Source: Hysterangium stoloniferum (lineage: Eukaryota; Basidiomycota; Agaricomycetes; Hysterangiales; Hysterangiaceae). Taken from it: a stretch of DNA of 64,000 nt. Location: positions 310,001 to 374,000 of the forward strand of contig WHVD01000080.1 in NCBI GenBank assembly GCA_015178975.1, written 5' to 3'. Positions within the stretch are counted from its first letter, which is position 1; every line of letters starts with the position of its first letter. Under the pieces are notes generated by a model. That model made no database searches and was not told where the DNA came from. It saw nothing but the letters and a program-made list of their open reading frames with translations. The position numbers and the translations under genes were made by a program. Positions 7,699 to 63,497 of the stretch are shown here, in pieces.

Positions 7699-8331
7699 GG
7701 AGAGAAGGAGTTAGAGGATGGATTAGAGTCCAGTGGCCAAGGGATGTAAAAGGTGGTCAGTCTGATCTTTTCATTACTCAGTAAAGTAGAATACTAATCA
7801 ATGTCGAATTTCAAAGGAGGGCTAAAACTGCATGCAAACCGCTTGGGTCAAGAGCTACCAGGAAAAGAGAGAGTAGGCTGTGACTCTTGGGAAACTGCAA
7901 GCGACAACAGGAGAGAAGGAGTTGGAAGATGGATTAGAGTCCAGTGGCCAAGAGATGGAACAGGTGGTCAGTCCGATCTTTTTATTACTCAATAAGGTAG
8001 AATACTAATCAATGTCGAATTTCAAAGGAGGGCTAAAACTGCATGCAAACCGCTTGGGTCAAGAGCTACCAGGAAAAGAAAGAGTAGGCTGTGACTCTTG
8101 GAAAATTGCAAGCGACAACAGGAGAGAAGGAGTTAGAGGATGGATTAGAGTCCAGTGGCCAAGAGATGTAAAAGGTGGCCAGTCCGATCTTTTCATTACC
8201 CAGTAAGGTAGAATACTAATCAATGTCGAGTTTCAAAGGAGGGCTAAAACTGCATGCAAACCGCTTGGGTCAAGAGCTACCAGGAAAAGAAAGAGTAGGC
8301 TGTGACTCTTGGGAAATTGCAAGCGACAACA
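7699..8331. repeat. Tandem repeat, 211-bp unit, three copies
   Basis: Three nearly identical units start at about 7699, 7910 and 8121, each opening with a GGAGAGAAGGAGTT-like stretch and closing with TGCAAGCGACAACA. The phase is exact (7801, 8012 and 8223 are equivalent points). Each unit contains a 64-codon open frame on the plus strand, but 211 is not a multiple of three, so the frames restart in each unit rather than forming one protein. The third copy ends at AGCAGATAAGG, where the similarity stops. No related sequence occurs elsewhere in the window. Confidence 0.85.
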
Positions 8332-9809
8332 GCAGATAAGGCCCCAAGTCTGCTTCGCAGAAAAATAAACAGACACATGATGAACCGGCTAGATACTCGT
8401 CGAAATACAACGTTCAAGCACAGTGGACTCCCAACTAGATAGTGGGCTTGAAAGATGGCACCTGAGAAAGCCTTTTATCCCAACAGTTGAGCATGCTACC
8501 CAAGTTTTCAAGACAAAACCATGAAGACATATATGGCGAGCATTTCCATTTTCAAATCTAAAGAAACAAAACAGACTTCCTCACATAGCCATTTTACCAG
8601 GTGACCCCCATACGTAAGAAACCTGGATACATTCTGTTACTGGAGTAGTTCCGATGAAACTCATGCCTTGGCAGCTGGTGGACCGACCAAAGAATAGATA
8701 TATCGGTGAGGAATGACATCAAAATCGATGCAACTATGTCTAAATGTAAAAGGCTATGGTGATGATCACCCCCGCGGGCCGCCAAGCAGGAAGAGCCTGA
8801 GGTGGGTTTTTAGGTGCGATAGGATTGTCGCCCCCTCAAGAGAATGCATCAGTACGTTTACTACCGCGCTAAACTACAAAGTTTCGGCCTCCGATTTGGG
8901 TTGTTCGCTAGGCATGATCAACCCTTCTTCCTAGGCTTGAACATTTATCTACTAGTAGGGGCTCGGTACTAAGTACTGTTTCGACATCAACCCCCCCCGT
9001 TTTATGTAGGAGGAGTGGTGCCTTCCTTTTTCGCTTCTTCATTGCTCTCCACCAAAATATCTGCAGGTTTCCAAAGTCTTGCTTGCCAACCCAGGTTTCT
9101 CAGAAGAGCCTTTAAAAGTCGATTAGCTGGCTCGCTTTGAACCCTTACCGACTTTATGACGATTTTATCATGTTCCCGTGATAAACTGGCCCATTAATTC
9201 AAGGGGTATCAATGCATTATAGTATATAAGTTGGGGGACAAATCTCGTATCGAGATTTGGTATGTCTACATCTACACATGTGTGGTGATTCCCGGTTCTT
9301 ACGGCTAACAAGACCAACCTTGTAGGATTATCTGATTTCCATTTTTTACTCTAAAGGTATGCTTATAAAATAAGATCTCCTCCCGATGTACTTCATACAA
9401 TTGGCCTTAGTTTGAATTCCAATGTTGACCTAGTTCGGTCTTTAATGGGTATGTACAAGTGGCCGGCCGCCTCCATATTCATTTTATAAGGTTCGCCAAT
9501 TATAGGGGTCGAGATCGTCATAAATGAAGTGACCTGACTTGCTAAGCACCCCAGTTTCTAGGTATCACGCCAGCATTCGACTAGTGGCATTGATAACAAG
9601 ACATTTAATCAGGTATATCACATGCTTTTTTTTTTTTTGAAAAGCGATCATACTACCTTGATAAGCAGCACTCATAAACCTCAAAATGATCTTATCGAGT
9701 GTGGTGCAAATCTCCGGCTATCCCTCGTATAAATGTCTACCAACACATGCGCACTAAACCATCAATCTCCTCCGTATCCTATCATCTGTTACCACCTGGT
9801 CTAGCTGGA
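8332..9809. other. Intergenic, nothing recognised
   Basis: About 1.5 kb between the 211-bp repeat and the 3' end of the lactate dehydrogenase gene. A run of T residues lies near 9628-9639. Short open frames at 8594-8785 and 8713-8934 overlap on opposite strands and show no domain. Confidence 0.5.
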
Positions 9810-25391: not shown

Positions 25392-25414
25392 TGTTAAAGG
25401 CATAGAAAAGAATT

Positions 25415-25488
25415 GACCCAGCCTGGGATTGAACCAAGGACCTCCTGGCTTTATATGCAGGTGCTCTTAACCACTGAGCTACTGGACC
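25415..25488 (-). tRNA. tRNA-like gene in mini-element LTR (array copy 1)
   Basis: 74 nt fold as a cloverleaf: acceptor GGTCCAG/CTGGGTC with two wobbles, D arm GCTC/GAGC, and T arm CTTGG/CCAGG with loop TTCAATC. The A box is TAGCTCAGTGG and the B box GGTTCAATCC. A T-run (TTCTTTTC) lies just downstream. The anticodon arm CCTGC-ATATAAA-GCCAGG has one extra nucleotide in its 3' strand; the loop would present ATA. It is probably a tRNA-derived Pol III unit rather than a translating tRNA. Confidence 0.7.
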
Positions 25489-25732
25489 TATAATCTAGTA
25501 TTATATGATGGATTATATATACATATATATAAGGACTTGTGATGCCAACTTGTGCTCTTATAACAGCTTATATAACTGATGGCAAGCCTGGGTCTTATAA
25601 CAGTCTATCACATATAGATATTGTATTTTCCCATTTCTAACACTTCCCCTGAAATCAATATCTAGTCTATACCCTACGCAGCAGATGAAGCTGAACGGGG
25701 CCCATAACCTGTTAAAGGCATAGAAAAGAATT

Positions 25733-25806
25733 GACCCAGCCTGGGATTGAACCAAGGACCTCCTGGCTTTATATGCAGGTGCTCTTAACCACTGAGCTAC
25801 TGGACC
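25733..25806 (-). tRNA. tRNA-like gene in mini-element LTR (array copy 2)
   Basis: Same 74-nt sequence and boxes as the first array copy, 318 bp downstream. Confidence 0.7.
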
Positions 25807-26050
25807 TATAGTCTAGTATTATATGATGGATTATATATACATATATACAAGGACTTATGATGCCAACTTGTGCTCTTATAACAGTTTATATAACTGATGG
25901 CAAGCCTGGGTCTTATAACAGTCTGTCACATATAGATATTGTATTTTCCCATTTCTAACACTTCCCCTGAAATCAATATCTAGTCTATACCCTACGCAGC
26001 AGATGAAGCTGAACGGGGCCCATAACCTGTTAAAGGCATAGAAAAGAATT

Positions 26051-26124
26051 GACCCAGCCTGGGATTGAACCAAGGACCTCCTGGCTTTATATGCAGGTGC
26101 TCTTAACCACTGAGCTACTGGACC
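26051..26124 (-). tRNA. tRNA-like gene in mini-element LTR (array copy 3)
   Basis: Same sequence, A and B boxes and bulged anticodon arm; next repeat of the array. Confidence 0.7.
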
Positions 26125-26368
26125 TATAGTCTAGTATTATATGATGGATTATATATACACATATATAAGGACTTATGTTGCCAACTTGTGCTCTTATAAC
26201 AGTTTATATAACTGATGGCAAGCCTGGGTCTTATAACAGTCTGTCACATATAGATATTGTATTTTCCCATTTCTAACACTTCCCCTGAAATCAATATCTA
26301 GTCTATACCCTACGCAGCAGATGAAGCTGAACGGGGCCCATAACCTGTTAAAGGCATAGAAAAGAATT

Positions 26369-26442
26369 GACCCAGCCTGGGATTGAACCAAGGACCTCCT
26401 GGCTTTATATGCAGGTGCTCTTAACCACTGAGCTACTGGACC
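26369..26442 (-). tRNA. tRNA-like gene in mini-element LTR (array copy 4)
   Basis: Same sequence. The surrounding LTR differs from its neighbours by scattered single bases, yet the tRNA-like part is unchanged. Confidence 0.7.
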
Positions 26443-26686
26443 TATAGTCTAGTATTATATGATGGATTATATATACACATATATAAGGACTTATGTTGCC
26501 AACTTGTGCTCTTATAACAGTTTATATAACTGATGGCAAACCTGGGTCTTATAACAGTCTGTCATATATAGATATTGTATTTTCCCATTTCTAACACTTC
26601 CCCTGAAATCAATATCTAGTCTATACCCTATGCAGCAGATGAAGCTGAACGGGGCCCATAACCTGTTAAAGGCATAGAAAAGAATT

Positions 26687-26760
26687 GACCCAGCCTGGGA
26701 TTGAACCAAGGACCTCCTGGCTTTATATGCAGGTGCTCTTAACCACTGAGCTACTGGACC
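26687..26760 (-). tRNA. tRNA-like gene in mini-element LTR (array copy 5)
   Basis: Same sequence, in the last LTR of the array; its T-run terminator is also kept. Confidence 0.7.
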
Positions 26761-26919
26761 TATAATCTAGTATTATATAATGGATTATATATACATATAT
26801 ATAAGGACTTGTGATGCCAACTTGTGCTCTTATAACAGCTTATATAACTGATGGCAAGCCTGGGTCTTATAACAGTCTATCACATATAGATATTTTATTT
26901 TCCCATTTCTAACACTAGA

Positions 26920-31088: not shown

Positions 31089-31408
31089 TGTATTAAAGGC
31101 ATAGAAAAGAATTGACCCAGCCTGGGATTGAACCAAGGACCTCCTGGCTTTATATGCAGGTGCTCTTAACCACTGAGCTACTGGACCTGTAGTCTAGTAT
31201 TATATGATGGATTATATATACATATATATAAGGACTTATGATGCCAACTTGTGCTCTTATAACAGCTTATATAACTGATGGCAAACCTGGGTCTTATAAC
31301 AGTCTGTCACATATAGATATTGTATTTTCCCATTTCTAACACTTCCCCTGAAATCAATATCTAGTCTATACCCTACGCAGCAGATGAAGCTGAACGGGGC
31401 CCATAACC
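31089..31408 (-). mobile_element. Partial mini-element (one LTR plus core) joined to a copia-A LTR
   Basis: LTR 31089-31341 and core 31342-31408. Where the second mini-element LTR should follow the primer site GGTTATGGGCCCC, a copia-A LTR (31409-31757) follows instead. The outer LTR end carries an extra A (plus strand TGTATTAAAGG). No TSD matches across this block. Confidence 0.82.
31114..31187 (-). tRNA. tRNA-like gene in partial mini-element
   Basis: Same 74-nt tRNA-like sequence with intact A and B boxes. Confidence 0.68.
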
Positions 31409-31757
31409 TGTTAAAAGTGACCTGTGACTTACTGTGACACGTGACACACACAAGTCTGAGGAAAGTTGTTACTATTCAGGTCACTAACTACAAGCTTATA
31501 TATGTTATACATCAGTAGGCTTGTCAGCTGTCATAAGTGACAGCTGGTTGACAGCTGGTTGACAGCTGTCATAAGTGACAGCTGATTGACAGCTTGAATG
31601 GAAACTGACAGCTGATTGACAGCTGGAATACAAAGTGACAGCTGATTGACAGCTGTCATGGGAAATGAACTGGGAATACTCTGGAACATGCTGGAAGGTT
31701 CTAGAAGGTTCTAGAAGGTTCCAGAAGGTCTTGGAGACAGTGGAGGCAGTTTTAACA
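31409..31757 (-). mobile_element. 3' LTR of copia-A copy 3
   Basis: 349 bp, followed on the minus-strand upstream side by the G-rich polypurine tract (GGGGGGTC in element sense) and a GA-type microsatellite near 31797-31820. Confidence 0.88.
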
Positions 31758-32470: not shown

Positions 32471-32819
32471 TGTTAAAAGTGACCTGTGACTTACTGTGAC
32501 ACGTGACACCCACAAGTCTGAGGAAAGTTGTTACTATTCAGGTCACTAACTACAAGCTTATATATGTTATACATCAGTAGGCTTGTCAGCTGTCATAAGT
32601 GACAGCTGGTTGACAGCTGGTTGACAGCTGTCATAAGTGACAGCTGATTGACAGCTTGAATGGAAACTGACAGCTGATTGACAGCTGGAATACAAAGTGA
32701 CAGCTGATTGACAGCTGTCATGGGAAATGAACTGGGAATACCCTGGAACATGCTGGAAGCTTCTAGAAGGTTCTAGAAGGTTCCAGAAGGTTTTGGAGAC
32801 AGTGGAGGCAGTTTTAACA
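32471..32819 (-). mobile_element. 3' LTR of copia-A copy 2
   Basis: Matches 37283-37631. The internal side shows the polypurine tract AGGGGGGTC (element sense) and a GA microsatellite at about 32858-32885. Confidence 0.9.
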
Positions 32820-32854
32820 GACCCCCCTGATCTCACATGTCTCCAAAGAAAAAG

Positions 32855-32885
<31 letters not shown>

Positions 32886-32924
32886 CTTTGCTAAACTACA
32901 GAGAGTAAGAAAGAAAACAAGAAA

Positions 32925-35900
32925 CTAAGTCCTTATACCCATTCCATCACGGCAAAATTGAACCTTGGGAGTAGATAGAGGCTTGGTTAGAATATCTGCA
33001 ATTTGTTCTGCAGTAGGAATATAGGAAGGAGTAATACACTTGGCATTTACAGCATCCCTAAGCCAATAGTAGCGCAGGTCAAGATGTTTCATCCTTCCAT
33101 GATGCTCAGGGTTCTTAGCAACACTGATGGCAGACTGATTGTCAATGTGTAGAGTGGAGGGTTGATCAACTTGGTAGCCAAATTCACCTAGGATTTGCCG
33201 CATCCAGGCAATCTCCTTGCCAGCTTCTACAGCAGAGACAAATTCTGCTTCAGTTGTAGAAAGTGTGACAATACTTTGCAGTTTACTACTCCAGCCAATA
33301 GCACCTCCAGCCATCATAGTTACATAACCACCAGTGGATCTTCCAGAATCAATGCAATCACCATGAGCAGCATCAGTGTATGTGGTGAATAGTTCAGAGC
33401 CACATTTACCAGAGTAATGCAACTTGTATTCCAGTGTACCTTTTAGGTATCTGAACAAGTGCTTCACTGCTGTCCAATGCTTTGGTCCAGGATTGCCATT
33501 AAAACGTGCCAAGTAGGACACAGTATAAGCAATATCTGGACGGGTCATAGTAGCCAGGTATTGTAAAGACCCAACAGCACTGAGATAAGGAACACTACGC
33601 ATGAAATCCACCTCTGCAGCATTCTCAGGACCCATTTCTTTGGAAAGAGATGTACCAGGTGTCATAGGTGTGAGAACTGGATGACAGTCAGACATGTTAT
33701 AACGCTCAAGCATGTTGAGAATAAATTGTCGCTGATCAAGAGTAAGGAGACGCTTAGAGCGATCTCTGCCAACTCCTACACCAAGTAAATAAACAGTGGA
33801 TCCAAGATCACGGCATTTGAAATGCAGAGACAATTGCTTGACAGCTTTGTCAATGGCAAGAGTGGACTTGGATGCAAATGTAATATCATCAATGTAAATG
33901 GGTACAAAGATCTTCACCTCTCCATTTGAATAAATGTAAACAGAGGTATCAGATTCAATTCGTTTGAACTCCATTTCAGTAAGTGCACCATGTAACTTGA
34001 TGTTCCATTGACGAGATCCCTGCTTGAGACCATAAAGTGATTTCAAGAGTCTGAGAACCTTATTAGGACCTCCTTGATGGAAGCCTTCAGGTTGTCTCAT
34101 ATAGATTGTCTCATCAAGGTCACCATGGGTGAAAGCAGCAGAAATGTCAACAGAGTGCAAGTCCATGTCTTCAATGGCAGCTAGGGCCAGAATCAAACGC
34201 AGAGTTGCAGGTCTAAAAGTAGGTGCAAACACTTCATTGTAGTCAATGCCAGGACGTTGTGAGTATCCTTTGGCAACAAGACGAGCTTTATAACGCTCAA
34301 TTGTGCCATCTGCATTGTGTTTGACTTTAAACACCCAACCAGAACCAATTGCCTTTGCACCAACTGGGAGGTCAACAAGTTCCCATGTCTTGTTTTCTAC
34401 CAGTGTATTGTACTCTGCATTGATAGCCTCTTGCCATTTATCTGCATCATCACCTTTCATAGCCTGCTTGTAGTTTTGTGGATCAGCAGTTGAAGCTGTT
34501 CCAACAAACTGTACTTCCTCATAATCAATGTCCTCATCATCATCTTCAGCTAGAGCTGGAGCTGGTTGTACCTTCCACCATTCACCAGGTTGCTTTGGAA
34601 CACGCTGAGAGCGACGAAGCTGTGGTTCTGGTGCAGGTGGAGGAGGTAGTTGAATGGGTTCAGGAAGTGCAGGAGGTGCAGGAATCTGAACAGGAGGTGC
34701 AGGAATATAAGCAGGAGGTGCAGGAATATGAGTAGGAGGGACAGAAATATCATTATCCCCCTCTACTTCTGGCACAAATAAAGGAATGTCAGAGTTTGGT
34801 ATATTTGGGAAAAGCCTAATATTAGGCATTGGTCCAGTAGTAGATAGACCAGGAAAGTGGCGTTCATCAAATACAGCCCGTTCAGAGATGATAAACTTCT
34901 TTGTAACAGGGTTGTAGAATTGCCAACCTTTGTATCCCACAGGATAGCCTAGAAAGAGGCATTTCTCCATGTGTGACTGAAGTGACTTCCTTTTGTCCCT
35001 TTGAATGTAAACATAGGCAGTACACCCCCACACTCGCAAGTTGCTCACATCTGGTTTCTGCTTGTACCATTGCTCATAGGGTGTAGTTTTAGGCAATGGT
35101 GCAGTAGGTAGACGGTTCCAGACATAAACATAAGATGTCACAGCATGGTTCCAGAAAGAAGCAGGCATACGCGCCTCATGCATCATGGCAGTGACATGAT
35201 CAGCCATAGTGCGATTGGCTCTTTCTGCAACTCCATTCTGTTGAGGGCGATTGCGAGTAGTATGGCGGCGTACTATTCCACATTCATCTGTAAACTTGAT
35301 AAAGGCATTTGACATATACTCCCCCCCTTTGTCATCCTGCAGAGCTTTGACCTTGCAACCCAGAAGATTCTCAGCATAAGCTTTATATCTCCTGAATGCT
35401 TCAAATGCATCACTCTTCCGTTTCAAGAACAGAACAGCTCGCAACTTGGTGCAATCATCAATAAAGGTTATCCAGTAGTGGTAACCCTCAGTTGTTTGCA
35501 CAGGAAGTGGTCCATGTAGATCACTATGAATAAGTTCAAGTGGTGTCTGAGAATGACTTGGTGAGATAGGGAATGGACTAGCAGTCATTTTGCCAGCAAG
35601 GCAAGGTTCACAGATAGGATCAGGTTGTTCCTTTGAGTCAAGGTTTAAGCCAACCACCAATCCTTCTCTGATCATCTTCTGGACATCAGCATAGCTGTGG
35701 TGTCCAAGACGGCAATGCCAGAGATTGATATCAAAGGGAAGGGTGGAGACAGCACCAGCTTGCTCAATAATAGGTGCAGTGACACCATTGAGGATACCTG
35801 CATTCTGTGCAGTAACTCTGGCTGTAAACATAGTCTGTCCAGAGTGTTTGAAATGCATTGTTGTTCGATCAATGTGTATGAGTAGTCCTTTGTGCCTTGT

Positions 35901-37040
35901 GAGATAAAGACAAGACAGTAGGTTACTGCGCAGTTGTGGTACATGCAAAACTCTTGTAAGCTCCACAGATCGCGATTTCCTTCCATTTATAACTGGGTTG
36001 AATACCACAGAACCAACTCCTGCAGAGTAGATAACAGTATGATCTGCTAACTTGATTGGGACACATAATGGTGTGTAGTTACGCAGCCAATGACTATGAG
36101 GAGTCATATGACTACTAGCACCTGTATCAGCAAGCCAATCATAGTCAGAACCATTCTGCAGGGTGGAGGCATCGGATGAGGAGAAAGCAAGTGCATTTCC
36201 AGTATATTCAACATTGTTCTGAGACATTGTCTTCTGAGGCCTATTTGGCTTCTTCTTCCCTTTAGCACGATTGGTAAGGACACTCTCCTGTGCTTCCTGC
36301 TGCTTCTTAATGAAGCGATGACACTTGTCCATAGTATGGTTGGTCATAGAGCAGAAAGTACATTTGAGAAATGCAGTGGATGCATTGCCCTTTACAGTAA
36401 GTGCAGATGCAACTGCAGGAGCTTGTGAAGCCCGATGACGGCGTTGTGACTCTTCTGTGACAAAAGCTTGTTGGATAGTAGCCTTGTCCAGCTTGTCCAT
36501 CAGAAGGAGAGAAGAGGCAAAGTTGTCAAACTGCTCAGGAAGTGCCCTGATCATTGCCATTGATGCAAGTTCCTCATCAAGTTTGGCAAGATCAAAATTC
36601 AATGGGCGCAGATCCTGGATGGCACGGATGGCTAGATCCACCCGATTCATCAGAGTTTGCAAATTCTCATTCTCTTCCTTTCTGATGGAGAAGAGATCAT
36701 CATACGCATTGAAGCGCATGCCAGGGCGCTTCTGCAAGTGTACATCACACAGACTGGTCCACATCTTGACCGGATCACCCTCAATCCCTTTAAGATGAAT
36801 CTTTTGATCATCCTCAACACTCAAGTACATCCAACCTGCTGCTTTGTCTGACTTGAGAGCCCAAGCATCAAATGCAGTTTGCTGAGCCTCTGTGGGAGAT
36901 GAGGATAGTGCAGGTGCAATGGAGGTGGCCTCAACAATGCGCCAGACACCCTGGGCACGAAGCCAAGCCTGCATCTCACCAGACCAGGTGTTGTAGTTAT
37001 GAGAGTTGAGTTTAGGGAATTGGGGGATGGAAGATGACAT
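32925..37040 (-). CDS. Copia-A Gag-Pol polyprotein, intact (1371 aa)
   Basis: A single frame encodes everything needed for copy-and-paste transposition. Order: Gag with a copia-type N-terminus (MSSSIPQFPKLN), CCHC knuckle CTFCSMTNHTMDKC, protease DWLADTGASSHMTP, GAG-pre-integrase zinc motif ending PICEPCLAGK, and integrase core with HSDLHGPL, DDKGGEYMS and QQNGVAERANRT (DDE residues). RT follows, with the Asp-bearing ISAAFTHGDLDETIYM, LYGLKQGSRQW and IYIDDITFAS, then RNase H with TDAAHGD, TTEAEF and DNQSAI. Integrase before RT is diagnostic of Ty1/copia. I start at the second Met (37040), because the nine codons upstream lie in the leader and are changed in copy 4. No stop or shift is visible. 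LWHCRLGHH differs from LWHRRLGHH in other copies. Confidence 0.92.
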   Translation of the reverse strand: MSSSIPQFPKLNSHNYNTWSGEMQAWLRAQGVWRIVEATSIAPALSSSPTEAQQTAFDAWALKSDKAAGWMYLSVEDDQKIHLKGIEGDPVKMWTSLCDVHLQKRPGMRFNAYDDLFSIRKEENENLQTLMNRVDLAIRAIQDLRPLNFDLAKLDEELASMAMIRALPEQFDNFASSLLLMDKLDKATIQQAFVTEESQRRHRASQAPAVASALTVKGNASTAFLKCTFCSMTNHTMDKCHRFIKKQQEAQESVLTNRAKGKKKPNRPQKTMSQNNVEYTGNALAFSSSDASTLQNGSDYDWLADTGASSHMTPHSHWLRNYTPLCVPIKLADHTVIYSAGVGSVVFNPVINGRKSRSVELTRVLHVPQLRSNLLSCLYLTRHKGLLIHIDRTTMHFKHSGQTMFTARVTAQNAGILNGVTAPIIEQAGAVSTLPFDINLWHCRLGHHSYADVQKMIREGLVVGLNLDSKEQPDPICEPCLAGKMTASPFPISPSHSQTPLELIHSDLHGPLPVQTTEGYHYWITFIDDCTKLRAVLFLKRKSDAFEAFRRYKAYAENLLGCKVKALQDDKGGEYMSNAFIKFTDECGIVRRHTTRNRPQQNGVAERANRTMADHVTAMMHEARMPASFWNHAVTSYVYVWNRLPTAPLPKTTPYEQWYKQKPDVSNLRVWGCTAYVYIQRDKRKSLQSHMEKCLFLGYPVGYKGWQFYNPVTKKFIISERAVFDERHFPGLSTTGPMPNIRLFPNIPNSDIPLFVPEVEGDNDISVPPTHIPAPPAYIPAPPVQIPAPPALPEPIQLPPPPAPEPQLRRSQRVPKQPGEWWKVQPAPALAEDDDEDIDYEEVQFVGTASTADPQNYKQAMKGDDADKWQEAINAEYNTLVENKTWELVDLPVGAKAIGSGWVFKVKHNADGTIERYKARLVAKGYSQRPGIDYNEVFAPTFRPATLRLILALAAIEDMDLHSVDISAAFTHGDLDETIYMRQPEGFHQGGPNKVLRLLKSLYGLKQGSRQWNIKLHGALTEMEFKRIESDTSVYIYSNGEVKIFVPIYIDDITFASKSTLAIDKAVKQLSLHFKCRDLGSTVYLLGVGVGRDRSKRLLTLDQRQFILNMLERYNMSDCHPVLTPMTPGTSLSKEMGPENAAEVDFMRSVPYLSAVGSLQYLATMTRPDIAYTVSYLARFNGNPGPKHWTAVKHLFRYLKGTLEYKLHYSGKCGSELFTTYTDAAHGDCIDSGRSTGGYVTMMAGGAIGWSSKLQSIVTLSTTEAEFVSAVEAGKEIAWMRQILGEFGYQVDQPSTLHIDNQSAISVAKNPEHHGRMKHLDLRYYWLRDAVNAKCITPSYIPTAEQIADILTKPLSTPKVQFCRDGMGIRT

Positions 37041-37282
37041 TGTAGTATACACAGAGCAAACTCGCAAAGAAGTTGAGAAAAAAGGTATTTAACTCGAGGT
37101 CCAGACGGTAGTCTCGAGGGAAACTCAGCCTTAGTGGCGTACAAGTTCCTCCCTACTAGCAACAGCAATAAGGCTGGGCCTGGCAGGGGAATATAAAAGT
37201 ATAGGCTGAAACTTACTCAAAAGAAGCGAGTTTGCAAAACGTTATACTGTACTAGAGCGCTTAGAGCGCGGGGCCCATAACC

Positions 37283-37631
37283 TGTTAAAAGTGACCTGTG
37301 ACTTACTGTGACACGTGACACCCACAAGTCTGAGGAAAGTTGTTACTATTCAGGTCACTAACTACAAGCTTATATATGTTATACATCAGTAGGCTTGTCA
37401 GCTGTCATAAGTGACAGCTGGTTGACAGCTGGTTGACAGCTGTCATAAGTGACAGCTGATTGACAGCTTGAATGGAAACTGACAGCTGATTGACAGCTGG
37501 AATACAAAGTGACAGCTGATTGACAGCTGTCATGGGAAATGAACTGGGAATACCCTGGAACATGCTGGAAGCTTCTAGAAGGTTCTAGAAGGTTCCAGAA
37601 GGTTTTGGAGACAGTGGAGGCAGTTTTAACA
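37283..37631 (-). mobile_element. 5' LTR of copia-A copy 2
   Basis: 349 bp. A heat-shock-type array is at 37568-37600. This LTR is the presumed promoter of the intact Gag-Pol gene, which reads leftward from it. Confidence 0.9.
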
Positions 37632-38577: not shown

Positions 38578-38882
38578 TGTTGAAACAGTTGAATAACTCT
38601 TGACAAACACCCTGTGAGTGTGAGGAAAGTAAACACTTAATGTATTCAACTGTGAAATAACTACATACCTGTGAGTGTGAGGAAAGTAAACACTAAGGAG
38701 ACTTTCCCACACCCACAGCGGAGTATACTACAGGGTGCTTACCTAAGCACCTACACATCAGTTACCTTACTAGGTAACTCACTCAATACTGCACCTACAG
38801 TGCTGGGAAAAATACTACAAATATCAGAAAAATATAGGGAACATCATAGACTATGTAAGAGCTGTAATATCATACTCTAACA
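38578..38882 (-). mobile_element. 3' LTR of copia-B
   Basis: 305 bp, TGTTAGAGTATGATATTAC to TTTCAACA in element sense. A 27-bp direct repeat containing AAAGTAAACA lies at 38611-38637 and 38668-38694. Confidence 0.92.
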
Positions 38883-38903
38883 CTCCCACCTGATGAGACA
38901 GCT

Positions 38904-41900
38904 CTATGCTAGTCCCAGTAGTTTTCGTAAGTATTCTACCTTTGGCTTAGCCAATGGTTTTGTCAATAAATCAGCAGGCATCTCTGAAGTAGGGAGATGA
39001 ACAACTTTGATCTTCCCACTATCAACTTCCTGCCTTAACCAATATGTTCTCAAATCCAGATGCTTCATACGGCCATGATGTTCAGGATCTCTGGCAACTG
39101 CAATAGAAGATTGGTTGTCAAGATACAAAGTGGATGCAGTCTTTTGAGGATATCCCAATTCCTCAAATAAGTTTCGCAACCATAGCACTTCCTGACCAGC
39201 TGACACTGCTGCAATATACTCTGCTTCAGTAGTAGAGAGAGTTACAATAGTCTGGAGTTTGCTCTGCCAGCTAATGGCTCCAGTACCCATCTTAACCACA
39301 TATGCACCAGTAGATTTTCCAGTTGACTTATCACCTCCATGGTCAGCATCTGAATAAGACACAAACAATTCCCTGTCATTACTAGGGCCAAAGGTCAAGC
39401 CCAAGTCAAGGGTGCCTTTGAGATATCGAAAGAGATGTTGTACTGCTAGCCAATGAGCCTTTCCTGGATTGTGATTAAATCTGGCTAATACTCCAACAGT
39501 ATAGGCAATGTCTGGACGAGTGGCAACAGCCAAATACATAAGAGAACCAACAGCATGGATGTATGGAATGTCCTTCATGTATGCAATCTCTTCAGGAGAC
39601 ACTGGAGCCTGGTCTTTACTCAATTTTGAGTTAGGTATCATAGGTGTACCAATGGGATTGCAGTCAGCAAGACCATAACGCTGTAACATGTCCAAGATGT
39701 ATTGACGCTGTGATAGAGTAATAGTACGCTTTGTCCTGTCTCTTTCAATGCCAACACCTAACAAGTAAGAAGTAGGACCAAGATCATGCAATTTGAAGTG
39801 GCTCTTTAGATCATCTTTGAGCTTTTTGATAGCCTCCTTGGATTTAGATGCAATAGTCATGTCATCTACAAATACTGGTATAATGACTTTGACATCACCC
39901 TTTTGGAAGACCCAAATGCTATGATCGCATAGCACTTGTTTGAAACCCAAACTGAGCAGGACAGCATTCAACTTCTTGTGCCAGATACGAGGTGACTGGC
40001 GTAAACCATATAGTCCTTTCAGAAGAAGTAAGAACTCATCACGAGCACCTTGGTGAAAACCTTCAGGCTGCTGCAAGTATACTTCCTCTTCAAGTTCACC
40101 ATTCAAGAATGCAGAGGAGATATCTACACTCTCAAGTTCCATGTCCTCCAGTGCAGCCAATGCTAGGACAGCACGCAAAGTGGCCCATTTGGCAGTAGGA
40201 GCAAAGGTATCAGTGAAGTCAAACCCTGGTCGTTGTGCATAGCCTTTTGCAACAAGACGAGCTTTGAACTTGTCAATTGACCCATCCTTCTTACGCTTGA
40301 TCACAAACACCCAACGAGAGCCAATAGCTTTACGACCCTCAGGTAGTTTAGCAAGGCGAAAAGTGCCATTTTCAAGCAGGGATTGCATTTCTGCATATGC
40401 AGCGTCATACCACTTGTCAGCATCAGGACTTTGTAAGGCCTCTTTGAGAGTTCTCGGTGCATCATCATGAGCACTGGCCTTGTAGGCAAACTCAAAGGCT
40501 TCATCCACACCAATGTAAAGATCTCCCTCACTGGCAGCTAGGGCTTCTTCCTCAGACTCAACTGGAGGAGGAGAATGTAGTGGAGAATCCTCTGCCTCAT
40601 CACTGGACTCAACTACAGGAGTAGATTCTCTATAGTTGTGGATGTGAGCAGGGTCAACTTGCCAGAAACGCTTAGGAGGAACTCTGTTTCTGGGTGGATT
40701 GCGACGTGGTTGAGGAGGAGGACTCGGTGAACGTTCAGAATGTTCAGAATTAGAATCAGAGTTGGAACTAGGACCAGGAGGCAAAGCATTATTCTGACCA
40801 TCTCCCACTGGATTTGGTTCCTGTGGAGCTCCCATCTGATTAGGCTGGGCTCCCACCTGAATAGACCTAGAGGGTCCAGGAATAAACAAATCAATAAATT
40901 GTGGAGTATCAGGAAGAACATCAGGAGCAGTAGGAGTAGAAGGTATGGCAGGTTTAGACAAGCCTGGTAAGACTCTCTCATCAAAGACAGCATTATTACT
41001 GATAATAGTCTTCTTAGTCAAGGGATTGTAAAACATCCAACCCTTATAATCTGGAGGATATCCAATAAAGACACATTTCTGTGTATGAGAGCCAAGTCCA
41101 ATACGTTGATCCTTCTGTACATGCACATAAGCAGTACAGCCAAATACCCTAAGATGTGATACTTCTGGTTTCCTACTATGCCAAACAGTATAAGGCACAG
41201 AATGCTTAAGAGCAGTGGTAGGTGAGCAGTTGCGCACATGAGTAATGGCAATGACAGCATGTCCCCAGAATGAGGGAGGGAGGTGGGATTCAGCCATAAT
41301 TGAAGTAGCCCCTTCTTCCAATGTTCTGTTGAAGCGTTCAGCAACCCCATTCTGATGTGGTTCATTCCGCACAGTATGCTGCCGGCTGATGCCAGCAGTG
41401 GAAAGGAAGGTATCAAACTCCTTAGACATATATTCTCCACCCTTGTCATCTCTGAATATCTTGATCTTCTGACCAAGCAAGTTCTCCACTTTAGCCTTAT
41501 ATTGCTTAAATGCCTGAAAGGCATCACTCTTATTTTTGAGTAATGCAATCGAAGCATAGCGTGAGGCATCATCAATGAAAGTGATCCAGTAGCGAAACCC
41601 TTCCACAGTTTGTGTAGGCAAGGGACCATGAACATCACTGTGAATGAGTGCAAGTGGTTTAGTATAGCGTGTTGTTGCTATTTTATTAATCACTCTGTTC
41701 TGTTTTCCAGCCAAACAAGGTTCACAAATAGGATCAGGAGACGTGTGAGAGTCAATCTTTATCCCACCAACCAAATCACCTTTGAGGAGCTTCTGGATAT
41801 CGGCATGATTGAGATGATTAAAGCGACGATGCCAAAGTGTGGAGTCCAAGGGACAGGTTGTAACAAGACCTGCATAATCCGTCATAGGTACCGTCATTCC

Positions 41901-43148
41901 ATCCAAATAGGCCTGGTTATGTTCATTGACTGTGGCAGTGAAACGCAAGACCTTTCTCAAATAGAAAGACATGGTGGAATGAAAGATAGAGACACGGAAA
42001 TTCTTTCTCTTTGTCAAATACAAGACAGAGAGGAGGTTACTTGTGAGATGGGGAACATGGAGAACCCTTTCAAACTCTATTATTACATTTCCATTTCCTT
42101 TAGGCTTAAACCGCACTGCTCCTATCCCTGCAGACATAACTATTTGTCCATTTGCAACTTGGATAGGTGTTTGAAACGGGGTATAACTTGAAAACCAATG
42201 ACGATGGGGAGTCATGTGCGAAGAAGCACCTGTGTCAGCAGTCCAGTCAGAACTAGCATTGACAAGGAGAGCACAAGATGGATCGGTAGAGTCAGGGATA
42301 GAAACACTTGCATTTCCAGCACTCTCTGGTTTCTTCTCCTCTGATACCTTGTCAGACGCATTAGCTTTGTCAGCCTTAGCAGTCTTTCTTTCTTTATACT
42401 CCTTTTTCTTCTGCTCAACTTTGGCCTTTGCCTGTTTCTGTGCATTTGCATACTCGTAACAATTGTCTTGGGTGTGGGTGGAACCATTGCAGAATGTGCA
42501 AGGAACTTTACCAGAAGTGTTGGAAGTCTTTGACACAATTTTGTTCGCCGTCTCTAAACTTCTGGCAGACTGCAAACTCTCTTGTGATGCAAAGTGAGTT
42601 TTGACATCAGAGAATGTGATAGCAGTATTCATCATTAAAGATGAAGTCCACACAGAGTCAGATTCAGGCAGAGAACGAAGTAAAGTGAGAGCAGCAAGCT
42701 CATCATCCAGCATGGCAAGAGTGTACCCCTTTGGACGCAAGTTCTGGACACGTGCACAAACCTTGTCAACACGACTCATTAATGAAGTTAGAGATTCATC
42801 AGGTTCCTTCCGAATATTAAAGAGGTCATTGTAGGCACTAAAACGAACTGCAGGGAGTTGTTTATTATGTGCCTTATCAATTTTAGACCACATATCATCA
42901 GGACCATCATCAATGTCAACATGGGTGCGCTGTGTAGGTCCAAGAGAGCGCCATATGATACCAGCTGCTTTATTGGAGCGCTCCAACCAGGCAGACTGTA
43001 AACTAGTCTCACTAGGTTGTTTTTCTTTGCCAGTGGCAATAGAGAGACAGTTCTCCATACGCAAAAGACCAATTACGTCATGTCTCCAATCCTCATAATT
43101 ATTCTCTCCCAATATGATACTACGTTTGTAAGTATCACTGGATGCCAT
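38904..43148 (-). CDS. Copia-B Gag-Pol polyprotein, intact (1414 aa)
   Basis: A continuous frame starts MASSDTYKRSIILGENNYED. Domains in order: copia-type Gag, knuckle CTFCNGSTHTQDNC, a Lys/Glu-rich linker, protease DWTADTGASSHMTP, GAG-pre-integrase ending PICEPCLAGKQ, and integrase with HSDVHGPL, DDKGGEYMS and HQNGVAERFNRT. A Pro/Ser-rich spacer follows, then RT (SVDISSAFLNGELEEEVYL, LYGLRQSPRIW, VFVDDMTIAS) and RNase H (SDADHGG, TTEAEYIA, DNQSSIAV). The RT box is FVDD here rather than YIDD. All catalytic motifs and the stop are intact. The start is the first Met, close to the leader. Flanking genes are all transposon parts. Confidence 0.93.
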   Translation of the reverse strand: MASSDTYKRSIILGENNYEDWRHDVIGLLRMENCLSIATGKEKQPSETSLQSAWLERSNKAAGIIWRSLGPTQRTHVDIDDGPDDMWSKIDKAHNKQLPAVRFSAYNDLFNIRKEPDESLTSLMSRVDKVCARVQNLRPKGYTLAMLDDELAALTLLRSLPESDSVWTSSLMMNTAITFSDVKTHFASQESLQSARSLETANKIVSKTSNTSGKVPCTFCNGSTHTQDNCYEYANAQKQAKAKVEQKKKEYKERKTAKADKANASDKVSEEKKPESAGNASVSIPDSTDPSCALLVNASSDWTADTGASSHMTPHRHWFSSYTPFQTPIQVANGQIVMSAGIGAVRFKPKGNGNVIIEFERVLHVPHLTSNLLSVLYLTKRKNFRVSIFHSTMSFYLRKVLRFTATVNEHNQAYLDGMTVPMTDYAGLVTTCPLDSTLWHRRFNHLNHADIQKLLKGDLVGGIKIDSHTSPDPICEPCLAGKQNRVINKIATTRYTKPLALIHSDVHGPLPTQTVEGFRYWITFIDDASRYASIALLKNKSDAFQAFKQYKAKVENLLGQKIKIFRDDKGGEYMSKEFDTFLSTAGISRQHTVRNEPHQNGVAERFNRTLEEGATSIMAESHLPPSFWGHAVIAITHVRNCSPTTALKHSVPYTVWHSRKPEVSHLRVFGCTAYVHVQKDQRIGLGSHTQKCVFIGYPPDYKGWMFYNPLTKKTIISNNAVFDERVLPGLSKPAIPSTPTAPDVLPDTPQFIDLFIPGPSRSIQVGAQPNQMGAPQEPNPVGDGQNNALPPGPSSNSDSNSEHSERSPSPPPQPRRNPPRNRVPPKRFWQVDPAHIHNYRESTPVVESSDEAEDSPLHSPPPVESEEEALAASEGDLYIGVDEAFEFAYKASAHDDAPRTLKEALQSPDADKWYDAAYAEMQSLLENGTFRLAKLPEGRKAIGSRWVFVIKRKKDGSIDKFKARLVAKGYAQRPGFDFTDTFAPTAKWATLRAVLALAALEDMELESVDISSAFLNGELEEEVYLQQPEGFHQGARDEFLLLLKGLYGLRQSPRIWHKKLNAVLLSLGFKQVLCDHSIWVFQKGDVKVIIPVFVDDMTIASKSKEAIKKLKDDLKSHFKLHDLGPTSYLLGVGIERDRTKRTITLSQRQYILDMLQRYGLADCNPIGTPMIPNSKLSKDQAPVSPEEIAYMKDIPYIHAVGSLMYLAVATRPDIAYTVGVLARFNHNPGKAHWLAVQHLFRYLKGTLDLGLTFGPSNDRELFVSYSDADHGGDKSTGKSTGAYVVKMGTGAISWQSKLQTIVTLSTTEAEYIAAVSAGQEVLWLRNLFEELGYPQKTASTLYLDNQSSIAVARDPEHHGRMKHLDLRTYWLRQEVDSGKIKVVHLPTSEMPADLLTKPLAKPKVEYLRKLLGLA

Positions 43149-43749
43149 GACACGTCAATATCCACCAAGAATTTAACTTAAAAAGAACTAAGTAATTGGA
43201 CTCGCAGTTGTAACACCGCCTTGCTCAACAGGGTTACCGTGATATTGCAAGGAAGGTAAAAACAAAGGCCCACTGAAGAGCACAATGCCAACAGTTCAAG
43301 TTCAATGTATCTAAAAGACCGTGTTAAAAAGGGAAAATGACGTGGCACAGACCCAGATGATACTGTGAAGTGCTTGAGGTGTGAGGGAAGAGTGTGACTG
43401 GAGAGAGAGGTGACAGGGTGTGACAGGGTGAGTCACAAGGGTGATAAAAATGAAGTTGCCCAAAAAAGGGAAATTGAGCGACGACAAGCGATTTGGAGCG
43501 TGGGAATATATTTCCTTTTATGGACTCGGGCGCCTAAATGGGCGAAAAATGCGCACAATCACAGGTGTGAGATGTGAGTTGAAAAAGCGACCAAATCAGG
43601 CCAAAATCCAAGGAGATATAACCAAAATAAAATCCAAACGCAATGTAGAGTGTTTTGGACAAGTAGAAGTTGTCAGAAAAGATGTGCAAAGTGATGGATT
43701 GCGCAGATGACAACTGGATGTACCGGTTTAGAAGCCGGGGCCCATAACC

Positions 43750-44054
43750 TGTTGAAACAGTTGAATAACTCTTGACAAACACCCTGTGAGTGTGAGGAAA
43801 GTAAACACTTAATGTATTCAACTGTGAAATAACTACATACCTGTGAGTGTGAGGAAAGTAAACACTAAGGAGACTTTCCCACACCCACAGCGGAGTATAC
43901 TACAGGGTGCTTACCTAAGCACCTACACATCAGTTACCTTACTAGGTAACTCACTCAATACTGCACCTACAGTGCTGGGAAAAATACTACAAATATCAGA
44001 AAAATATAGGGAACATCATAGACTATGTAAGAGCTGTAATATCATACTCTAACA
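43750..44054 (-). mobile_element. 5' LTR of copia-B
   Basis: Same 305-bp sequence as the other LTR. It is the presumed promoter. About 590 bp of leader separate it from the Gag start at 43148. Confidence 0.92.
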
Positions 44055-44813
44055 GTTTTGTGGATCAGCAGTTGAAGCTGTTCCAACAAACTGTACTTCC
44101 TCATAATCAATGTCCTCATCATCATCCTCAGCTAGAGCTGGAGCTGGTTGTACTTTCCACCATTCACCCGGTTGCTTTGAAACACGCTGAGAGCGACGAA
44201 GTGGTGGTTCTGGTGCAGGTGGAGGAGGCAGTTGAATGGGTTCTTCAACCCCAGAAGGAGGCAAAGGTGGTTCAGGAAGTGCAGGAACATGAGCAGGAGG
44301 TATAGGAATATGAGCAGGAGGTGCAGGAATATGAGTAAGAGGAACAGAAATATCATTATCCCCCTGTACTTCTGGCACAAATGAAGAAATGTCAGAGTGT
44401 GGTGTATTTGGGACAAGCCTGATATTAGGCATTGGTCCAGTAGTAGATAGACCAGGAAAGTGGCGTTCATCAAATACAGCCCGTTCAGAGATGATAAACT
44501 TCTTTGTAACAGGGTTGTAGAATTGCCAACCTTTGTATCCCACAGGATAGCCTAGAAAGAGGCATTTCTCCATGTGTGACTGAAGTGACTTCCTTTTGTC
44601 CTTTTGAAAGTAAACATAGGCAGTACACCCCCACACTCGCAAGTTACTCACATCTGGTTTCTGCTTGTACCATTGCTCATAGGGTGTAGTTTTAGGTAAT
44701 GGTGCCGTAGGCAGACGGTTCCAGACATAAACATAAGATGTCACAGCATGGTTCCAGAAAGAAGCAGGCATACGCGCCTCATGCATCATGTGTTAAAGGC
44801 ATAGAAAAGAATT

Positions 44814-44887
44814 GACCCAGCCTGGGATTGAACCAAGGACCTCCTGGCTTTATATGCAGGTGCTCTTAACCACTGAGCTACTGGACC
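44814..44887 (-). tRNA. tRNA-like gene in mini-element 3' LTR
   Basis: Same 74-nt tRNA-like unit with A box, B box and downstream T-run, in the same orientation as the element. Confidence 0.7.
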
Positions 44888-45130
44888 TATGGTCTAGTAT
44901 TATATGATGGATTATATATACATATATATAAGGACTTATGATGCCAACTTGTGCTCTTATAACAGCTTATATAACTGATGGCAAACCTGGGTCTTATAAC
45001 AGTGTGTCACATATAGATATTGTATTTTCCCATTTCTAACACTTCCCCTGAAATCAATATCTAGTCTATACCCTATGCAGCGCACCAAGCTCACGGGGCC
45101 CATAACCTGTTAAAGGCATAGAAAAGAATT

Positions 45131-45204
45131 GACCCAGCCTGGGATTGAACCAAGGACCTCCTGGCTTTATATGCAGGTGCTCTTAACCACTGAGCTACTG
45201 GACC
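45131..45204 (-). tRNA. tRNA-like gene in mini-element 5' LTR
   Basis: Same 74-nt unit, identical to the one in the partner LTR. Confidence 0.7.
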
Positions 45205-46228
45205 TATGGTCTAGTATTATATGATGGATTATATATACATATATATAAGGACTTATGATGCCAACTTGTGCTCTTATAACAGCTTATATAACTGATGGCA
45301 AACCTGGGTCTTATAACAGTGTGTCACATATAGATATTGTATTTTCCCATTTCTAACATCATGGCAGTGACATGATCAGCCATAGTGCGATTGGCTCTTT
45401 CTGCAACTCCATTCTGTTGAGGGCGATTGCGAGTAGTATGGCGGCGTACTATTCCACATTCATCTGTAAACTTGATAAAGGCATTTGACATATACTCCCC
45501 CCCCTTTGTCATCCTGCAGAGCTTTGACCTTGCAACCCAGAAGATTCTCAGCATAAGCTTTGTATCTCCTGAATGCTTCAAATGCATCACTCTTCCGTTT
45601 TAAGAACAGAACAGCTCGCAACTTGGTGCAATCATCAATAAAGGTTATCCAGTAGTGGTAACCCTCAGTTGTTTGCACAGGAAGTGGTCCATGTAGATCA
45701 CTATGAATAAGTTCAAGTGGTGTCTGAGAATGACTTGGTGAGATAGGGAATGGACTAGCAGTCATTTTGCCAGCAAGGCAAGGTTCACAGATAGGATCAG
45801 GTTGTTCCTTTGAGTCAAGGTTTAAGCCAACCACCAATCCTTCTCTGATCATCTTCTGGACATCAGCATAGCTGTGGTGTCCAAGACGGCGATGCCAGAG
45901 ATTGATATCAAAGGGAAGGGTGGAGACAGCACCAGCTTGCTCAATAATAGGTGCAGTGACACCATTGAGGATACCTGCGTTCTGTGCAGTAACTCTGGCT
46001 GTAAACATAGTCTGTCCAGAGTGTTTGAAATGCATTGTTGTTCGATCAATGTGTATGAGTAGTCCTTTGTGCCTTGTGAGATAAAGACAAGACAGTAGGT
46101 TACTGCGCAGTTGTGGTACATGCAAAACTCTTGTAAGCTCCACAGATCGCGATTTCCTTCCATTTATAACTGGGTTGAATACCACAGAACCAACTCCTGC
46201 AGAGTAGATAACAGTGTGATCTGCTAAC

Positions 46229-59682: not shown

Positions 59683-59933
59683 TGTTAGAAATGGGAAAAT
59701 ACAATATCTATATGTGACAGACTGTTATAAGACCCAGGCTTGCCATCAGTTATATAAACTGTTATAAGAGCACAAGTTGGCATCACAAGTCCTTATATAT
59801 ATGTATATATAATCCATCATATAATACTAGACTATAGGTCCAGTAGCTCAGTGGTTAAGAGCACCTGCATATAAAGCCAGGAGGTCCTTGGTTCAATCCC
59901 AGGCTGGGTCAATTCTTTTCTATGCCTTTAACA
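59683..59933 (+). mobile_element. Solo LTR of the mini-element (plus orientation)
   Basis: 251 bp from TGTTAGAAATGGG to CCTTTAACA with TSD AAAAG (59678-59682 and 59934-59938). It is the only mini-element copy in plus orientation. Confidence 0.92.
59837..59910 (+). tRNA. tRNA-like gene in solo mini-element LTR
   Basis: 74-nt tRNA-like unit readable directly on the plus strand: GGTCCAGTAGCTCAGTGG at its start and GGTTCAATCCCAGG in the T arm, followed by TTCTTTTC. Confidence 0.72.
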
Positions 59934-62445: not shown

Positions 62446-62656
62446 TGTGAGGAGTATGCTTTTACCACAGTATCATTGTGGTGAAACACTCCTTTTATTT
62501 CATTTATATTTTACATATTCTATTCATATTTTTCTATCTTTCATATTCTTCAAATATCGCATATTTCATTAGTTTGAAGCATTGTGTATACTTGTGGGTG
62601 CACTCAGCACCAATTAGAACTCAGACACACTTTTGTTAAAGGTATAGAAAAGAATT

Positions 62657-62730
62657 GACCCAGCCTGGGATTGAACCAAGGACCTCCTGGCTTTATATGC
62701 AGGTGCTCTTAACCACTGAGCTACTGGACC
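62657..62730 (-). tRNA. tRNA-like gene in mini-element LTR
   Basis: Same 74-nt unit, unchanged although the surrounding LTR has diverged. Confidence 0.7.
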
Positions 62731-62973
62731 TATAGTCTAGTATTATATGATGGATTATATATACATATATATAAGGACTTATGTTACCAACTTGTGCTCT
62801 TATAACAGTTTATATAACTGATGGCAAACCTGGGTCTTATAACAGTCTGTCACATATAGATATTGTATTTTCCCATTTCTAACACTTCCCCTGAAATCAA
62901 TATCTAGTCTATACCCTATGCAGCGCACCAAGCTCACGGGGCCCATAACCTGTTAAAGGCATAGAAAAGAATT

Positions 62974-63047
62974 GACCCAGCCTGGGATTGAACCAAGGAC
63001 CTCCTGGCTTTATATGCAGGTGCTCTTAACCACTGAGCTACTGGACC
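62974..63047 (-). tRNA. tRNA-like gene in mini-element LTR
   Basis: Same 74-nt unit in the partner LTR. Confidence 0.7.
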
Positions 63048-63497
63048 TATGGTCTAGTATTATATGATGGATTATATATACATATATACAAGGACTTATG
63101 ATGCCAACTTGTGCTCTTATAACAGTTTATATAACTGATGGCAAGCCTGGGTCTTATAACAGTCTGTCACATATAGATATTGTATTTTCCCATTTCTAAC
63201 AACTTTAACCCAAGAACCACCACTCGTAAGACATAAACTAGGTCTACTACGAGCGGTGATCAGGGTAACGTGTCAGCTACCACTTAGGTAGCATTATCTG
63301 AACTACTGAACACTTCTGGCCTCGAACTGTAATAGTCGAGGCCTCCACTCGAACCATCGCACTCGTTGACTCCTTCGTCATCTTGTGCTCTTTCTCTCAC
63401 TTTCTCTTATATTGCACCGAATAGGTCAATATTCTTCCTTTCTACTCATTTCTTCGTATATAGAACGGTCAGAACTTCTGCCACTCTTCACAGAGAC

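Follow-up and report, generated by a model that had tools for sequence, protein, structure and literature searches.

Insertions joining a Copia LTR to a Helenus-type TRIM point to a probable mobilizing partner in Hysterangium stoloniferum

TRIMs with tRNA-like sequence in their LTRs were described in fungi, animals, and a plant and named Helenus (Kojima 2024, PMC10886601). In the available text of that report, these elements combine TRIM size with tRNA-like A and B boxes in the LTR, a primer-binding site (PBS), a polypurine tract (PPT) and, in fungi, a 5-bp TSD. Their PBS is complementary to the anticodon arm of the initiator tRNA-Met (iMet) and common with Copia, solo LTRs occur, and tandem arrays were noted for LTR-11_DR. 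The same text connects Helenus with Copia through PBS similarity and an internal region common with a Copia of another species, whereas the link described below consists of hybrids within one genome; it also states that Pol III transcription of Helenus awaits experimental validation. Cassandra, in the text available for it (PMC7215508), likewise has a Pol III promoter in the LTR and forms tandem arrays, but the promoter comes from 5S rRNA sequence instead of the tRNA-like sequence found here, and according to PMC10886601 nothing indicates an autonomous partner for it. Three further systems concern joined elements. Template-switching complexes (Sabot and Schulman 2007, PMC1950507) are fused LTR elements with TSD-flanked integration, and the available descriptions of plant tandem LTR-retrotransposons (PMC11899658) and of the Onsen family (PMC5668417) report TSD-flanked arrays of LTRs and internal regions and pairwise recombination during transposition, respectively.

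The window analyzed is a stretch of 64,000 nucleotides, and the genome of 111 Mb in 554 contigs was searched along with it. The host lineage is Agaricomycetes, Phallomycetidae, Hysterangiales. A non-repeat ORF of the window (1505-2680) has 94% identity to a protein of H. stoloniferum. This truffle-like fungus has been termed ectomycorrhizal in the text available for PMC7550596, and Table 1 of PMC10886601 contains neither this species nor any Phallomycetidae. The element under study lies on the minus strand at 44791-45358 and has the following parts.

45108..45358, minus strand: 5' LTR, the same 251-bp sequence as the 3' LTR
44791..45041, minus strand: 3' LTR, 251 bp, 0 differences from the 5' LTR
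45042..45107, minus strand: core, 66 bp
45094..45107, minus strand: PBS GGTTATGGGCCCCG, 14 nt, complementary to nt 27-40 of initiator tRNA-Met (by eye)
45042..45053, minus strand: polypurine-rich tract TTTCAGGGGAAG ahead of the 3' LTR
44786..44790, no strand: left copy of the TSD TCATG
45359..45363, no strand: right copy of the TSD TCATG
45130..45204, minus strand: tRNA-like sequence in the 5' LTR (ARAGORN, Rfam)
44813..44887, minus strand: tRNA-like sequence in the 3' LTR (ARAGORN, Rfam)
45229..45247, minus strand: TATA-like stretch 5' of the tRNA-like part, starting at LTR position 112
45121..45128, minus strand: T-run TTCTTTTC past the tRNA-like part, LTR positions 231-238, possibly a weak Pol III terminator

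The two identical LTRs, the core with its PBS and PPT, and the TSD were all present as the original prediction had claimed. The whole of 568 bp (251 + 66 + 251) is overlapped by no ORF of at least 150 aa in the ORF list of the window and corresponds to a TRIM, being short and non-coding with two LTRs around a small internal region. Judged by its sequence, the unit is a Helenus-type TRIM (TRIMp3) with a Pol III promoter region of the tRNA-like kind in its LTR. The prediction was right in seeing a fungal counterpart of Cassandra with such a region in the LTR and wrong in holding that no TRIM with a tRNA-like gene in its LTR had been described, given the Helenus elements of PMC10886601, to which it belongs at the class level. 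The class is therefore already known, the host is new, and the family, compared on class features, is probably new. Membership in Cassandra, which would require 5S rRNA sequence in the LTR, was rejected, as RF00005 was the sole Rfam match at gathering scores.

The tRNA-like segment occupies LTR positions 155-229 and counts 75 nt including the discriminator. It was called tRNA-Tyr(ata) by ARAGORN and matched RF00005 in a search of the window (48.6 bits, E-value 2.4e-7). The A box TAGCTCAGTGG, the B box GGTTCAATCC, and the T-run all run in the element's sense, and the Helenus box pattern TRGCY..YGG plus GGTTC appears in the LTR as TAGCT..TGG and GGTTC. The T-run holds no more than four T together. 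The cloverleaf predicted for each LTR was borne out in its boxes and orientation but proved imperfect: the Rfam alignment showed one extra C within the anticodon stem, and the minimum-energy fold has a shape other than a cloverleaf (z = -0.30). Given the extra C and this fold, the sequence is unlikely to yield a working tRNA.

Eleven copies of the segment were found in the window, and a genome search that allowed up to 3 mismatches gave 212 matches, against 0 for the reversed pattern, so chance does not account for it. The LTR U3 segment occurred 214 times at up to 3 mismatches. One could suppose that a host tRNA gene or SINE was inserted late in some LTRs, or that a real tRNA-Tyr gene was amplified for its product, and the two tRNA calls agree with this. 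The near-equal totals of 212 and 214, which were not paired copy by copy, rule out late insertion into a few LTRs and dispose of the suggestion that the tRNA-like part might be confined to them. Against a functional gene stand the anticodon ATA, the additional base in its stem and the fold, and weakly the bit score, which falls below the 49.4-73 bits of nine non-repeat host tRNAs (from the best-scored RF00005 candidates, also called by ARAGORN). We regard either version as very improbable.

Among the sequences fetched in a search for the source of the segment, the best full-length matches (55 and 54 of 75) were members of another tRNA-like repeat, followed by tRNA-Ser, tRNA-Val and tRNA-Cys with 53 of 75 each; the first 18 nt are common to the tRNA-Cys(gca) of locus L108. 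As the prediction supposed, the element may have taken up a tRNA gene, and its spread could depend on Pol III. The other repeat is more diverged and was seen at L100, L101, L102, L116, and L118 (C112 0.98-1.22 Mb, C68, C526, C410, and C486), with tRNA-like parts of 94-97 nt that share an insert and were called Stop(tta) by ARAGORN. In L100 and L102 these parts are paired about 420 bp apart inside repeats of 155-195 nt that are 86% alike, and by its sequence this repeat is perhaps another Helenus family.

Conservation was measured on 72 LTRs from loci retrieved without the tRNA probe; a count on all 91 sampled LTRs was set aside because loci L009-L038 had been picked by exact tRNA match, and these were left out as biased. 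Divergence from the window copy per 100 nt per copy was 0.222 in the tRNA-like part, 2.579 upstream, and 0.884 downstream, and the part was exact in 62 of the 72 LTRs. None of the 12 variant sites common to at least three copies fell inside it (75 of 251 nt; site permutation P = 0.013, with kinship of the copies ignored). Three variants common to two copies did, and single-copy variants were not scarcer there (6 in 75 nt versus 13 in 154). The pattern fits selection on the source elements for the tRNA-like part, whose role would presumably be that of a promoter.

The genome contained 30 cores of the 66-bp type and 42 of a 67-bp type, 72 altogether, and because 212 to 214 LTR segments stand against these, many of the LTRs must by this count be solo. 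The 568-bp unit is real but only one form among several, since the 11 LTRs of the window belong to a five-LTR array, a Copia hybrid, the element under study, a solo LTR, and a second complete element.

25392..26914, minus strand: tandem array (five LTRs, four 67-bp cores) between two copies of the TSD CTAGA
31091..31757, minus strand: hybrid (L079), made up of a Copia LTR at 31409-31757, a 67-bp Helenus core at 31342-31408, and a Helenus LTR at 31091-31341
59683..59933, plus strand: solo Helenus LTR, TSD AAAAG
62634..63201, minus strand: second complete Helenus element, TSD ACTTT

Sampling covered 91 distinct full LTRs with flanks, a subset of the 212. Full elements, solo LTRs and 5-bp TSDs, which the prediction had proposed to count, were all found within this genome. 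At the sampled loci, perfect 5-bp TSDs enclosed 15 of 19 elements with a 66-bp core, 15 of 21 solo LTRs (mostly retrieved by the tRNA probe), and both arrays, namely, that of the window and a C4 array that combines both core types (c66-c67-c66, TSD GGTTG); the one LTR-c67-LTR element had none. Among the matches listed, copies were clustered at C35 0.90-1.09 Mb, C14 161-187 kb, C109, C182, C534, which holds the window, and C543, where heterochromatin is possible. Three elements on C543 (266371, 271785, and 277199) are spaced by 5414 bp, probably through tandem duplication of a 5.4-kb unit. The window also holds a tandem repeat at 7699-8341 (period 211, 3 copies, 94% matches), and a PDB search with a host gene returned no match.

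Two complete Copia elements lie between the array and the element under study.

32471..37631, minus strand: complete Copia, the proposed mobilizing family, LTRs identical (349/349), TSD GATAT, PBS as in Helenus
32925..37067, minus strand: its gag-pol ORF, 1380 aa, with gag, integrase core, and RVT_2 domains
38578..44054, minus strand: copia2, another complete Copia with 305-bp LTRs that are 100% identical, TSD AAAAC, ORF of 1414 aa

The 14-nt PBS follows the LTR in Helenus, the window Copia, and copia2 alike. The anticodon arm deduced from it, CGGGGCCCATAACCCCG, occurs at 3 places in the genome, every one an ARAGORN tRNA-Met(cat). Counted by eye from nt 40 back, pairing with the initiator tRNA-Met covers 14 bases for the Helenus PBS and 17 for the Copia PBS. 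On these pairings, Helenus and Copia would both be primed by a 3'-truncated iMet, the commonest type in fungal Helenus according to the available text of PMC10886601. As copia2 has the same PBS, PBS identity alone cannot account for the choice of partner.

A genome-wide pattern in which the LTR end of Copia or copia2 is joined to a Helenus core gave 18 matches, which came to 16 after removal of two native Helenus elements (L083 and L084) and to 17 with the addition of L067. Hybrids thus make up at least 17 of the 72 cores (7 of the 66-bp and 10 of the 67-bp type), a lower bound given that reading covered some of the other 55 cores. In the hybrid form, a Copia LTR replaces the 5' Helenus LTR, and the core and 3' LTR are those of Helenus; the first seven places each showed the core and 3' Helenus LTR with the Copia LTR at the 5' side. 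The 5' LTR belonged to the window Copia family in all 17, although shortened by deletion in L081 and degraded in L085, and measured 308-349 bp where its start was located. No copia2 LTR was found in the 16 hybrids from the pattern, which admits copia2 LTR ends, or in the 17 overall. Twelve hybrids are simple, four are fused to further Copia sequence (L069, L071, L076, and the window hybrid), and L085 is degraded.

A perfect 5-bp TSD enclosed nine of the 12 simple hybrids (L067 ATCCA, L070 ACGCG, L073 CCTGG, L074 AAAGA, L075 TTACA, L077 CTGTC, L078 GATTT, L081 GGTTG, and L082 TTTAT) and was absent in L072, L080, and L086. Because each of the nine lies within its own TSD, their flanks indicate that they integrated as hybrids, and the hybrids without a TSD would fit later recombination. 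The hybrids involve 66-bp as well as 67-bp cores and Copia LTRs that vary in length, so they arose in many events.

The reciprocal join, a Helenus LTR followed by the Copia internal region, was found at 6 places in the genome. Three of these (C2, C35:1081, and C259) belong to composites already counted as L069, L071, and L076 and so add no independent case. At C35:906607, a Helenus LTR, Copia internal region, and Copia LTR are flanked by AGAGA within a GA run (ends read); the end flanks on C14 are unlike, and one end was seen on C256. Joins on the PPT side gave 0 matches at up to 2 mismatches when the PPT was that of Helenus and the LTR that of Copia, and again 0 for the opposite combination, with a pattern that has no positive count on native PPT borders; a Helenus LTR followed the Helenus PPT in 44 cases at the sampled loci.

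Both ends were read for five composites or reciprocal joins, and the flanks match in C259, C2, and C35:906607 and are unlike in C14 and C35:1081. For C259, C2, and C35:1081, the ends and part of the interior were read. The C259 concatemer (Copia LTR, 67-bp core, Helenus LTR, deleted Copia internal region, Copia LTR) has the TSD ATCAC and outer LTRs identical at 346 of 349 positions. C2 runs from a Helenus LTR through a deleted Copia internal region, Copia LTR, and 67-bp core to a Helenus LTR, with TTTTT on each side (low complexity) and 249 matches, 1 mismatch, and 1 gap between the outer LTRs. C35:1081 has an order like that of C259, flanks GACCG and TGGTC, and outer LTRs with 300 matches, 8 mismatches, and 1 gap. 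One and the same stretch is missing from the Copia internal parts of all three, at about positions 278-891 in the numbering of the window Copia, counted within its internal region, which may reflect a deleted Copia subfamily or shared descent; compared among themselves, their Copia parts match at 1158-1170 of 1187 positions, no closer than L087 and the window Copia match each other (1174). The window hybrid is joined to an outer Copia, whose internal region precedes it, and has unlike outer flanks (GAGAA and CAGGC), a structure compatible with recombination of the 3' LTR of a Copia with the Copia LTR of a hybrid. Joining during retrotransposition and later recombination both seem to occur.

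Going by the known steps of reverse transcription, intermolecular plus-strand transfer would swap elements at the PBS, and a switch at R would yield recombinant LTRs. The complexes of PMC1950507 require like outer LTRs and switch at R, whereas the simple hybrids have outer LTRs of two families with the changeover at the LTR/PBS border. The TSD expected of such complexes was found in the nine simple hybrids and in C259; like outer LTRs are absent from the simple hybrids and present in C259 and C2. The arrays of PMC11899658, as far as the available text describes them, consist of like elements and could stem from either recombination or complex insertion, whereas those here also combine two families, and mixed cores occur. 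The recombinants of PMC5668417 are described within a single family, whereas a TRIM and an autonomous element are joined here. The titles and abstract openings listed by searches of an open-access library contained no mention of Helenus-autonomous hybrids. What is new here is the occurrence of Helenus-Copia hybrids in insertions of their own, which point to the mobilizing element.

We propose, with a probability of roughly 0.85, that the Helenus-type TRIM is mobilized in trans by the Copia family at 32471-37631 and that plus-strand DNA sometimes jumps between cDNAs at the PBS. Transcription would start near LTR position 155 by Pol III, or by Pol II via the TATA-like stretch. A run of four T is short as a terminator for fungal Pol III, so the transcript could read through it, cross the PBS, core, and PPT, and stop in the 3' LTR. 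Copia proteins would package the Helenus RNA, bringing RNAs of both elements into one particle, and truncated iMet would prime reverse transcription of both at the same PBS; we infer these steps from RNA to particle, as we do the strand transfer. Plus-strand strong-stop DNA (LTR and PBS) would mostly return to its own PBS and sometimes reach that of the other element's minus strand, giving a cDNA in which a foreign 5' LTR precedes the native core and 3' LTR. Tandem arrays and Copia-Helenus concatemers could come from a series of such jumps.

Chromosomal homologous recombination or gene conversion between neighboring Copia and Helenus insertions, via the 21 bases shared at the LTR/PBS border, could also produce the hybrids. 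In its favor, the window hybrid and L069 both follow a Copia internal region, the former has unlike flanks, about 540 bp are missing from the target Copia in a way that fits loss through LTR recombination, and three simple hybrids have no TSD. Yet crossing-over between two insertions would destroy the TSD, and a single perfect one encloses nine of the 12 simple hybrids, while unique flanking DNA would offer conversion no outer pairing partner; as the origin of the hybrids, this process is unlikely. Another possibility is that Helenus has no specific partner: several Copia families with this PBS would move Helenus, the most abundant would join most often, and the hybrids would record packaging opportunity. 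The identical 14-nt PBS of copia2 agrees with this, but none of the 16 hybrids from the pattern has a copia2 LTR end, a count unscaled to the copy number of either Copia, and we give this explanation a modest chance at best. Mobilization by the window Copia family is the reading we retain.

An extension of the proposal that we put forward tentatively, as possible though still doubtful, is that the Pol III-type mini element and the Pol II-type Copia swap whole LTRs at the PBS and so exchange promoters, some hybrids replicating again as new composites. C259, with Copia outer LTRs, and C2, with Helenus outer LTRs, are circular permutations of each other in order. If this is true, joining at the PBS would let TRIMs gain or switch autonomous partners and would also be a route to tandem arrays.

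The autonomous mover of a TRIM is normally deduced from sequence similarity. TSD-flanked hybrids would be a physical record of two RNAs reverse-transcribed together, and as such point to the partner. They bear on the question, raised in the available text of PMC11899658, of whether tandem LTR arrays form during retrotransposition or through later recombination, and such hybrids can be sought in any genome with TRIMs.
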